Part shown: positions 13,077 to 19,472 of the stretch, one piece after another
How the letters are laid out: each line of letters opens with the position of its first letter
Numbering within the stretch: position 1 is the stretch's first letter
NCBI GenBank assembly: GCA_021651055.1
Contig: JAJHOH010000001.1
Span: 1,922,001 to 1,986,000, forward strand
Direction: 5' to 3'
DNA from: Candidatus Manganitrophus morganii
GTDB lineage: Bacteria; Nitrospirota; Nitrospiria; SBBL01; Manganitrophaceae
DNA: 64,000 nt
The notes under the pieces: generated by a model
Told to the model about the DNA's origin: nothing
The model's database searches: none
The model's input: the letters and a program-made list of their open reading frames with translations, nothing else
Position numbers and translations under genes: made by a program

Positions 13077-13104
13077 TTGACAAAATATTACTTTTTGGTA
13101 TCTT
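13077..13104 (+). promoter_or_regulatory. Sigma70 promoter of the c-di-GMP riboswitch leader
   Basis: A consensus TTGACA (13077-13082), a 16-base spacer and TATCTT (13099-13104). A start near 13111 would place the whole riboswitch in the transcript. Confidence 0.7.
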
Positions 13105-13127
13105 TTACCACGAACAAAGTCTGAATC

Positions 13128-13222
13128 CAAGATAAAGGCAAACCAACCGAAAGGTTGGGGCGCAAAGCTTCAAGGCTTCGCCGGGCGAAAGGAATCGCCG
13201 GCATGCTAGTTGGGCTGCCCTG
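13128..13222 (+). ncRNA. GEMM / cyclic-di-GMP-I riboswitch
   Basis: The sequence has the GEMM-I core in order: GGCAAACC, a helix capped by a GAAA tetraloop (AACC-GAAA-GGTT), GGGGCGCAAAGC, and a second helix arm with a receptor-like side, closed by a distal TGCC that pairs with the 5' GGCA. This is the two-helix, tetraloop-docked fold that binds c-di-GMP; some close variants bind cyclic AMP-GMP. It is transcribed from a good promoter 17 bases before the predicted RNA start and is followed by an intrinsic terminator and the lipoprotein gene. It therefore probably works by transcription termination. The exact ligand of this variant cannot be set by eye. Confidence 0.85.
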
Positions 13223-13259
13223 GATAAATAAGAATCGCTCTATCCTTATTTATATGCGC

Positions 13260-13294
13260 AGCCCATTTCTAGAGTTTGGAAATGGGCTTTTTTA
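13260..13294 (+). terminator. Riboswitch-associated intrinsic terminator
   Basis: GCCCATTTC (13261-13269) pairs with GAAATGGGC (13279-13287) around a 9-base loop and is followed by six T residues. It lies between the riboswitch and the ATG at 13375. A second possible stem, ATAAATAAG with CTTATTTAT (13224-13252), lies between the aptamer and the terminator and may take part in switching. Confidence 0.8.
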
Positions 13295-13374
13295 TTTTGC
13301 AAGGATGCAAACGAGATGCTGCCCGTTTCAGGTCGTCCGAGAGAACACATCGAAACACAAACAGGAGACAACAC

Positions 13375-16068
13375 ATGAATAGGTTACTTGCAGTGGCTTC
13401 GGCTTCATTGATCTTGAGCCTCAGCCTGGCTGCCTGCGGCGGCGGGGGCGGAGGAAGCAGTTCATCGGGGGGCGGAGGTTCTCAGTCGGCCGGTTTCGAG
13501 GTGCCGACCGAAATATCCGCAGTCCCGACCAACCTTTCCGGAAGCGTCGGAGGGGTCACCAAGCCCGGCCTCAGATCGAAGCTTTCCGCGTTGAAACAGG
13601 CCGCGACCGACCCGAATACCGACTACAGCAAAGCGCAGACGGTAAAGTTCGTGAATGAGCACACCTTGGAACAGTTCGACATCATCGAACAGGTCCTCTC
13701 GGCGCTGGCCCAGACGAACTACGCCGACGAGGCCAACGTGAATCAAGGTCCTTATAAAGCGATGGTCGCCTTCCAGGACGAACAGAACGGCATTGAGACG
13801 AAATCGCTCGAGCCGTGGGTGGTTGACTCGGCGATGATCGAGGAGGACGGCCAAGATGTCAATCGCGTCCGACTCTGGATCGAGGAGTCGCGGGACGGGG
13901 TGACCATGGTGGTCAAAGGCGAATTTAAGATCTTTCAATCGGCCACACGTCGAGACGATGGCTCTTACAGTGACTACGGCGTCTGGACGTTGAATGTCCG
14001 GTTCGGCGACTCGGCTTCCGACTTCTTCGCAGCATCCGCCGACATCGACGCAGACGGCCGTGCGGTCATTAAGATCAATGAGAGCAGCCCGGGCGGCCCA
14101 GGTGGCAGCCATCAGATGAAGGCGGTCATGAACCGCTCGGAGACAGACGGCTTCGGGAAGGTGATGTTCCCCGACTTCGAGAGCTGCACTCAGCCCAACT
14201 GCACGCCGGACCCGGTGGAAGCGAAATATGCCTACAACACGGCCCATCTCGCCATTCAAAAAGGGGCGGGTGCCGTCCAGTATAAAGACCGGACCTCCAT
14301 CACCGAGATGACTCATCGGTATGGAATGTTCGATAGCGAGACCGGACAGGATGTCATGAAGAGCAAGTCGTTCGGTTTCCCGGTGGAGTTCACCGACACC
14401 GAGGGACACCGCCAGTTCGCCTACTACGGGGCTTGGCAAGGGCGCCATCAGCTCTGGGCCGGCAACGGAGCGGTCCCCGCCGGAACCACCGTCAAACGTC
14501 AAGACCGGGGCAATCAGGATACCGCGGAGACCTACACCGTCGCGACGCAGCTTGACGGAACCTTCACCAAGCGAACGCTGGTGCCGGGCGCCCTGAACGA
14601 CATCAGAGGGATCGCCGTCGAGACCTGGATCAATAAACACTTTAACCTTCTGCATAATGGGTCGACGTGGCAGGCCTGCGACGGATGGATCGACCGCTTC
14701 GATCCAAACAACCCGATCTGCACCAGCGGATCATTTTCTACTTTCGCTGATTTCGACATACTGGTGGTGAGCGAAGGCGACCGCAAGTTCGTCAATATCG
14801 GCCGCTGGGATAATGTTAATAATATGCCGGAGAATTACGTCTATCTCAACGCCGATCCCGGCTTGAGCGGCTATAACGGCGTCGGTTTCTATAAGGCTCA
14901 GTTCCCCGAGCCCGGCACCCCGGGAGGCATGACACCGGTCAGCCCCGCTGTAAAGCTTGCTGAAACCGACGGCACCGACCTTTTTGTCGATATCGGCGGC
15001 TCCATTTACATCTCCTACACAGGAGAATTCGGCGGGCCGACCACCACGACCGGCTGGGTGCAGAAAGAGTTGACCGGTTTCGATGAGAGCACCTGGACGC
15101 CGGAGTTCGGCACCGGAGATGCGGCCTTTACCCCGGATCCGGGACGTGAGTATTACATCAACAGCCACGGAGCCAACTTCATCGTGCGCCGTAAAAACAA
15201 CAGCGTCATGGATGCAAACGCTTATGACGTGATGATTGAGCTGCAGAGCGCCGCCAATCCGACCAACGTTGCATCGATGCTTCCTTCGGGGGCTGATTAT
15301 CTCCGCTCTCCGTGGCGGCAAGATGTGCGTTACACCTTCATTACAAGCGCCGGTACGAACTTCCTCCTCTTACAGTATCTCTCGGATGATCCAAATACCC
15401 CGGATGTGGATGAAAGCGCCGTGCCGACCGTCGTCACCAACGGCGAATGGGGTCTGCAGGCCTATGACACAAACGGCACGCCAAACGACTTTACCGACGA
15501 CACACCGCTTCAAGCGGATGGCACGCCGGTAACCGTCGATCAATGGGGCATTCCCACGGATCCGACCATTCGGCCGGTGCAGTTCAACTGGGAATATGCT
15601 CAAGAAGGGACCGGTTGGGGCGCACAGCAGTTCTTACTCGACGCGAGCAGCAACTACGTCCTGCTGAGCGATCCGATTCGTCTCGTTCCGGTGACACTGA
15701 CCAGCAATGCGGGAGAGGAGAAGTCTCTCGCGCTTCAGTATGACGGCTGGATGCATGGGTTGCCGGATCTCTTCCATGAACTCTTCAAGAACGGCCACGT
15801 GATGACTGATGATATTTCGGACAAGATCATCAATATCCCGGCCGGTACCGAGGTCACCGATGCCGATGACGCGGCTAAGAGCTACCTGGTCAAACCGCTC
15901 GAAGTCAGTCAGTTCCTGGATGTCGTTTCCGATCCGGGCACCCTCGACATCAGCGTCGCCGATGCCATCGACCTGAACACGGTTCCCGTGTTTGTCGAGC
16001 ACAATATGGGTGCCATGCCGGAGACCACCGGCGTGAAGTACTCGGAAGGTGTTTTAGTAGAGGAATAG
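13375..16068 (+). CDS. Large orphan lipoprotein under c-di-GMP riboswitch control
   Basis: An 897-residue secreted lipoprotein. The start is set by AGGAG 9 bases before ATG at 13375. An upstream in-frame extension would run into the terminator and is rejected. The signal MNRLLAVASASLILSLSLAAC gives lipobox LAAC (Cys21), followed by a flexible Gly/Ser linker (about 22-38). The rest is rich in Asp, Thr, Gly and aromatic residues with no membrane span and looks like beta-rich surface modules. I see no CxxCH heme motif, no repeat and no known enzyme motif, and I do not recognise the family. A Cys pair (CTQPNC) lies near residue 280 and another (CDGW...CTSG) near 445-460. Only the riboswitch suggests a role: a surface or biofilm component. 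Confidence 0.85.
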   Translation: MNRLLAVASASLILSLSLAACGGGGGGSSSSGGGGSQSAGFEVPTEISAVPTNLSGSVGGVTKPGLRSKLSALKQAATDPNTDYSKAQTVKFVNEHTLEQFDIIEQVLSALAQTNYADEANVNQGPYKAMVAFQDEQNGIETKSLEPWVVDSAMIEEDGQDVNRVRLWIEESRDGVTMVVKGEFKIFQSATRRDDGSYSDYGVWTLNVRFGDSASDFFAASADIDADGRAVIKINESSPGGPGGSHQMKAVMNRSETDGFGKVMFPDFESCTQPNCTPDPVEAKYAYNTAHLAIQKGAGAVQYKDRTSITEMTHRYGMFDSETGQDVMKSKSFGFPVEFTDTEGHRQFAYYGAWQGRHQLWAGNGAVPAGTTVKRQDRGNQDTAETYTVATQLDGTFTKRTLVPGALNDIRGIAVETWINKHFNLLHNGSTWQACDGWIDRFDPNNPICTSGSFSTFADFDILVVSEGDRKFVNIGRWDNVNNMPENYVYLNADPGLSGYNGVGFYKAQFPEPGTPGGMTPVSPAVKLAETDGTDLFVDIGGSIYISYTGEFGGPTTTTGWVQKELTGFDESTWTPEFGTGDAAFTPDPGREYYINSHGANFIVRRKNNSVMDANAYDVMIELQSAANPTNVASMLPSGADYLRSPWRQDVRYTFITSAGTNFLLLQYLSDDPNTPDVDESAVPTVVTNGEWGLQAYDTNGTPNDFTDDTPLQADGTPVTVDQWGIPTDPTIRPVQFNWEYAQEGTGWGAQQFLLDASSNYVLLSDPIRLVPVTLTSNAGEEKSLALQYDGWMHGLPDLFHELFKNGHVMTDDISDKIINIPAGTEVTDADDAAKSYLVKPLEVSQFLDVVSDPGTLDISVADAIDLNTVPVFVEHNMGAMPETTGVKYSEGVLVEE

Positions 16069-17753: not shown

Positions 17754-19472
17754 TTAAAACAAAAAATACCGCTGGGCCATCGGGAGTTTCTCCGCCGGCT
17801 CGCAACGGAGGAGGACCCCATCAGCCCGGACCTCATAGGTTTCCGGGTTCACCTCGATCCGCGGGAGCGCATCGTTCAGCCACATCTCCCGCTTTCCGAT
17901 CCGCCGGCAGCCCTGCACCGCAACGGTCCTCTTTCTCAGTTCCAGGCTCGCCGCAAGGTCGCTCTCCGCCGCCGCCTTGGAGAGAAAGGTGATGCTGTTT
18001 TCATAGGGCGCCCCGCCGAAGGCGCCGAACATCGGACGATAGAGAACCGGCTGCGGGGTGGGGATCGAGGCGTTCGGATCGCCCATCGCCGCCCGGAGAA
18101 TCATCCCCCCCTTGACCACCCGCTCCGGTTTCACCCCGAAGAAAGCCGGCCGCCAGAGGACCAGATCGGCCAACTTTCCCACTTCGAGCGATCCGACCTC
18201 TTCGGAGATCCCATGCGCAATCGCCGGGTTGATCGTGTATTTGGCGATGTACCGCCGCGCGCGGAGGTTGTCGCTCCCCTCCCCCTCCTCCGGCAGCGGG
18301 CCGCGCTGTCCCTTCATCTTGCTCGCCGTCTGCCAGGTCCGGAGGATCACCTCCCCCACCCGGCCCATCGCCTGGGAGTCGGAGGCCATAATCGAAAAGG
18401 CGCCGAGGTCGTGAAGAATATCCTCCGCCATGATCGTCTCGGGGCGAATCCGGGAGTCGGCAAAAGCGACATCTTCCGGGAGCGAAGGATCGAGGTGATG
18501 GCAGACCATCAGCATGTCGAGATGTTCGTCGATCGTATTGACGGTGAACGGCCGGGTTGGATTGGTCGATCCGGGCAGGATGTTCGGCTCCCCGCAGAGG
18601 CGGATAATATCGGGGGCATGGCCGCCGCCGGCCCCTTCGGTGTGATAGGCATGGATCGTTCGCCCGGCGATCGCTTCGATCGTCGCCTCCACGAAGCCGG
18701 CTTCGTTCAACGTATCGGTATGAATCGCCACCTGGACATCATATCGATCGGCGACCGTCAGCGCGGTGTCGATGGCGCGCGGGGTGCTCCCCCAATCTTC
18801 ATGGAGCTTCAACCCGATCGCCCCGGCGAGGATCTGCTCCTCCAGCGGCGCCGTCGACGACGCGTTCCCCTTTCCGAGAAAACCGAGGTTGATCGGAAAG
18901 CCGTCGGCCGCCTGGAGCATCCGGGCCAGATTCCAGGGCCCGGGGGTGCAGGTGGTCGCGTTGGTCCCGGTGGCCGGACCGGTTCCGCCGCCGATCATGG
19001 TCGTGATCCCGGAGGTGATGGCTTCGTCGATCTGCTGCGGGCAGATGAAGTGAATGTGGGAGTCGATCCCGCCGGCGGTGACGATCATCCCCTCGCCGGC
19101 GATCACTTCGGTGGCGGCGCCGACCACCATCCCGGCGGTCACGCCGTCCATGATCTCCGGATTCCCCCCTTTTCCGATCCCGACGATCCGGCCCCCTTTG
19201 ATCCCGATATCGGCCTTCACGATCCCCCAGTAATCGAGGATCAACGCATTCGTGATGATCAGATCGAGCGCCCCCTGGTCCGACGTCGCTCCCGATGACT
19301 GGCCCATCCCGTCGCGGAGGACTTTCCCCCCGCCGAACTTGCACTCATCCCCATAAACGGTCAGGTCCCGTTCGACGCGGATAATTAAATCGGTGTCGGC
19401 CAGGCGAACCCGGTCTCCGGCCGTCGGCCCGAACATCTCGGCATAGACCCGCCGCGGGATCTTTAACGCCAT
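17754..19472 (-). CDS. ureC: Urease catalytic subunit alpha UreC
   Basis: A full-length 572-residue urease alpha subunit, the nickel enzyme that hydrolyses urea to ammonia and carbamate in the cytoplasm. All active-site residues are present: metal ligands His139 and His141 (SHIHF), the carbamylated Lys222 (GLKLHEDWG), His251, His277, Asp365 (MASDSQAMG), substrate-side His224, and the mobile-flap Cys324-His325 (MVCHHLD). The C-terminus is the canonical AQRYFLF. ureA, ureB and ureC are separate genes, the usual bacterial three-subunit layout. The gene lies after ureB, separated by a perfect palindrome. Confidence 0.98.

Follow-up and report, generated by a model that had tools for sequence, protein, structure and literature searches.

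A conserved GEMM-I riboswitch, a likely c-di-GMP OFF-switch, in front of a mosaic lipoprotein gene of Candidatus Manganitrophus morganii

The locus described here raises the question "Which signal does the leader of this large lipoprotein gene sense, does that signal turn the gene on or off, and what kind of protein is controlled?" It lies in a stretch of 64,000 nucleotides of the Candidatus Manganitrophus morganii genome (the window), on the plus strand, as do all features given below by window coordinates unless stated otherwise. An earlier note on this DNA had described a promoter, a GEMM-I core, a GAAA-capped helix, a terminator and a lipoprotein gene, and every one of these parts is present where it had been placed. 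The promoter is a match to the sigma-70-type consensus (13077-13104, TTGACA-16-TATCTT with a TG before the second hexamer), and TTGACA is likewise present 5′ of orthologous aptamers. There follow a GEMM-I (c-di-GMP-I) aptamer (13128-13223), an intrinsic terminator (13260-13293, its stem at 13260-13288 and its T run reaching 13293) and, 81 nt beyond, the gene for a lipoprotein of 897 residues (13375-16068), which begins with ATG at 13375 and has AGGAG upstream. A long minus-strand ORF within that gene (13462-14655) was taken as chance.

The identification of the leader as GEMM-I was borne out by the covariance model RF01051, which gave 71.1 bits (E 9.4e-14, gathering 35 bits) in a scan of the whole genome (4,287,287 bases, a single contig), the highest of 11 matches. 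The aptamer has the P1-P2-P3 junction with a GNRA-capped P2, and in the 18 leaders of alignment A1, our sample for all pair counts, 94-100% of cells are paired in P2 and P3 and 74% in P1 (drawn as 13125-13129 with 13221-13225). Its core consists of GGCAAACC (13137-13144), the GAAA-capped P2 and then GCGCAAAGC (13160-13168). By alignment the ligand-contact bases are G20 (13137), A47 (13164) and C92 (13218), the last two invariant in the 18 leaders, and we take the same three bases to occupy these positions in Vc2 of Vibrio cholerae, which differs from the window in expression platform and gene. In known structures A47 stacks between both ligand bases and C92 pairs with a ligand guanine, while base 20 directly precedes P2, its equivalent in the cGAMP riboswitch being A14, the last base of J1/2; moreover, changing G20 to A (G20A) lets the c-di-GMP-I riboswitch bind cGAMP (PMC6274999, PMC7288161). 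The combination of G20, A47 and C92 therefore favors c-di-GMP over cGAMP, the same preference that had been voiced before base 20 was checked and found to be G, and c-di-GMP is the likely ligand as far as the sequence can tell.

How would binding be read out? Control by transcription termination is predicted, as the earlier note had supposed. All stem cells of the terminator are paired (100%) in the 18 leaders. Across these leaders the aptamer and terminator together have 95.0% standard pairs, with 13 pairs showing two-sided change versus 7.3 in shuffles, and an antiterminator of eight pairs, which covaries between 13211-13218 (the P3 3′ arm plus C92) and 13258-13265 (overlapping the terminator 5′ arm), has 97.2% of its cells paired and 13 cells changed on both sides, although slid controls favor these structures, since they were drawn up on the window sequence. 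Most informative is leader base 99, which pairs with base 143 of the antiterminator in all 18 leaders (C-G in 11, U-A in 7), whereas its aptamer pair with the invariant A49 is broken in 11; the antiterminator was apparently maintained by selection at the expense of the A49-99 pair. Since the antiterminator contains the ligand-pairing C92, it and the bound aptamer are mutually exclusive. In ViennaRNA folding without ligand, the antiterminator had a probability of 0.84-1.00 in 18 of 18 leaders at the point where synthesis of the terminator 3′ arm is about to begin; in the full-length equilibrium fold, again without ligand, the window prefers the terminator (0.92) and its orthologues are mixed. 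Because that full-length preference is mixed, the OFF reading depends on kinetics, and the decision of the switch should be a kinetic one, as has been modeled for Cd1 of Clostridioides difficile (PMC9262584).

Cd1 is also the closest parallel in design, with a GEMM-I aptamer that can coexist with its terminator and an antiterminator that takes the 3′ side of the pocket, in Cd1 unfolding the binding pocket, to give a transcriptional OFF-switch of the kind predicted here (PMC9262584). The leader in the window shares the feature that marks a Cd1-like OFF-switch, a conserved antiterminator that excludes both aptamer and terminator, but it serves another gene in another host and its platform sequence is its own. 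We propose that the nascent RNA would, when no ligand is bound, pair 13211-13218 with 13258-13265, thereby occupying the terminator 5′ arm, so that the lipoprotein gene would be transcribed. By contacting G20, A47 and C92, bound c-di-GMP would keep the aptamer closed, the 13211-13218 strand would not be free, the terminator would form and transcription would end some 80 nt short of the start codon. On this antiterminator architecture c-di-GMP is predicted to silence the gene, and the protein, which is mainly beta-strand and recombines in its central part, would be produced while c-di-GMP is low.

What other ligands might this aptamer bind? Its genome is predicted to make both c-di-GMP and 3′,3′-cGAMP, and the leader might sense the latter, alone or together with c-di-GMP. 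Among 33 GGDEF matches, a number in keeping with c-di-GMP as the signal, two proteins (L078, G000:C1:2560579-2561052, and L096, 673028-673552) carry the GHxxGS + GGDEF Hypr signature that marks cGAMP synthesis in Geobacter (PMC6456294), the same genome holds A20-type GEMM-I elements (by pattern, G20 is found in two of the ten other GEMM-I matches and A in the remaining eight) and some orthologous lipoprotein leaders have A20. It is, however, A at this base that goes with cGAMP, and the window has G at 13137 where GEMM-Ib cGAMP riboswitches have A20; G20 is also found in 15 of the 18 aligned leaders, and we consider a cGAMP-sensing aptamer unlikely. Could it instead belong to the variant class c-di-GMP-I-GGC, with an altered ligand preference? 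RF03167, the model of that class, gave 62.1 bits (E 3e-12) in the scan of the 64-kb window, above its gathering score of 59, and won the clan overlap there. Yet RF01051 gives more bits, and the RF03167 consensus has G, which on our reading of the model and its name is the defining base, at the position of A47, invariant in 18 leaders, so that we read the window aptamer as the ordinary G20/A47/C92 type and membership of the variant class is extremely improbable.

The direction of the switch invites the same scrutiny, as in the Geobacter pilM leader the ligand blocks termination. The pilM and other GEMM-Ib cGAMP riboswitches (PMC9262584, PMC6456294) have the aptamer fold in common with the window, and they have A20 relatives elsewhere in this genome, where the terminators of other GEMM-I elements overlap with the 3′ strand of P1, as in the pilM layout. 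The window, in contrast, has G20 and an OFF rather than an ON layout: its terminator does not overlap P1, formation of the aptamer leaves the terminator free to fold as well, and the helix that shows conservation and covariation is one that excludes the aptamer. An ON-switch is accordingly very unlikely, and we infer that the switch is likely an OFF-switch. Taken jointly, a transcriptional OFF-switch responding to c-di-GMP and a beta-strand lipoprotein, probably at the surface, made at low c-di-GMP is in our judgment a probable reading of the locus. It would provide a probable c-di-GMP target gene, predicted to be off at high c-di-GMP, in a lineage of manganese-oxidizing chemolithotrophs (Nitrospirota).

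Is this arrangement peculiar to one genome? A GEMM-I match lies just 5′ of the gene in 20 of the 22 Nitrospiria homologs with upstream sequence, one of them (G019) a weak match of different sequence with 37.0 bits, and the two that lack it, G006 and G007, belong to the most divergent homologs. Searches up to E = 1 found no GEMM-I at the gammaproteobacterial homolog, the Pseudomonadales homolog, the homolog from one delta MAG or the two most divergent Nitrospiria homologs. As the arrangement of leader and gene recurs before homologs at 36-95% protein identity, it is not due to chance, and it is well supported that the leader is a new representative of an already known kind of riboswitch, conserved in relatives. 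The neighbors of the window gene are absent outside the genus where flanks were read, except in L027, which keeps three of them. That the leader is kept while the neighbors mostly differ indicates that switch and gene travel as a unit, in agreement with the self-contained unit that the earlier note had seen.

The leaders are less constant at base 20, which is A in L026, L042 and L054 and C in L025 (5766-5856). Since L025 (C20) and L026 (A20) are sisters in the protein tree, this base changes over short distances, and the ligand may differ in the few orthologs that have A or C there. These orthologous switches form a natural set differing at the single base that presumably decides whether c-di-GMP or cGAMP is bound. 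A wider reading, which we put forward tentatively as the less probable course, would have two dinucleotides acting in parallel through GEMM-I switches in Nitrospiria, c-di-GMP as an OFF signal on the lipoprotein and cGAMP, through A20 aptamers, as an ON signal on fibronectin-type-III proteins, with rewiring at base 20 between lineages; if true, the changes among G, A and C in orthologous leaders would mean that the controlling signal of one gene had been rewired between lineages.

What, then, is the protein? It has a lipoprotein signal peptide with the lipobox LAAC (within LSLAAC), in which Cys21 is invariant in 14 homologs. It had been called an orphan, a description that does not hold, as homologs occur in 24 of 57 other relatives checked; homologs are found in many Nitrospiria, some Pseudomonadota and MAGs of Deltaproteobacteria/Myxococcota, and the closest named record is from Candidatus Manganitrophus sp. 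GAC4. The GAC4 copy (L020 / L129) is in more than one frame, with breaks near residues 26-38 and 781-793, owing either to assembly error or to a disrupted gene. The statement that no known family could be recognized stands in that the protein has no meaningful match in Pfam, NCBIfam or PDB sequences, nor its alignment in Pfam or PDB, but a homologous family does exist, and judged by sequence the lipoprotein is a member of an unnamed one. Structure prediction, which the earlier note had proposed, yielded an AlphaFold model of the whole protein that is mostly beta-strand with a mean pLDDT of 70; the model had no significant match in the PDB, a result that does not in itself speak for a new fold. 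In a comparison with SusC / TonB-dependent barrels the best Z was 8.5 (rmsd 6.6 over 175 residues), and Foldseek gave none with E < 0.001; the C-terminal 213 residues modeled alone had a pLDDT of 45, too low for use.

The most striking feature of the protein is its central part. Relative to G002, of the same genus, identity is 91-99% for neighboring proteins and about 99% for the leader DNA, but only 63% for the lipoprotein, with a sharp drop concentrated in residues about 421-757 (14635-15645). This block is 44% identical to that of G002, to which blastn found no match for it, versus 66% to that of L022, from another taxonomic family, and 52% to that of a gammaproteobacterial MAG homolog. The block and the flanks give conflicting trees, and AU tests rejected window plus G002 for the block (p 8e-67) and window plus L022 for the flanks (p 3e-5), p-values that are optimistic because the pairs were picked after the identities were known; the log-likelihood differences are large (124, 211). 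From these comparisons we infer that the central block was exchanged by recombination between distant species and that the lipoprotein is surface-exposed and under diversifying pressure. A near-unchanged switch joined to a protein with an exchanged center suggests just such a surface component, and the lipobox and the mosaicism are the two grounds on which we place the protein probably at the cell surface. Of the surface or biofilm role suggested earlier, the surface part is thus probable, but the OFF architecture predicts expression at low c-di-GMP, opposite to what is typical of biofilm genes.

Several further observations concern cyclic dinucleotides in this genome and its relatives. The L078 type of GGDEF protein has a signature-bearing best homolog in 10 of 11 Nitrospiria relatives, a conservation that suggests cGAMP signaling in Nitrospiria; a limited literature search found no report linking Hypr GGDEF proteins with Nitrospirota, and the main text of a comparison of Manganitrophaceae (PMC9040806) mentions no riboswitches, c-di-GMP or lipoproteins. 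At G000:C1:1017732-1017947 (L004, L009) a tandem of two GEMM-I aptamers, with G20 in the leading one and A20 in the one that follows, lies 5′ of a gene whose beginning resembles that of a fibronectin-type-III protein; each aptamer is followed by a terminator of its own, and a two-signal gate is possible there. Pairs of A20-A20 GEMM-I elements occur at 3245277/3245453 and 3250459/3250738, and several A20 aptamers (L008-L011) share the same P3 insert of >100 nt, in which GGGTGTAGGG-like repeats fold into a long hairpin. Finally, elsewhere in the window (19022-19319, plus strand) a match to RF02514 (5′ ureB sRNA, 99.9 bits) is antisense to the minus-strand urease gene ureC and may merely be conserved coding sequence.
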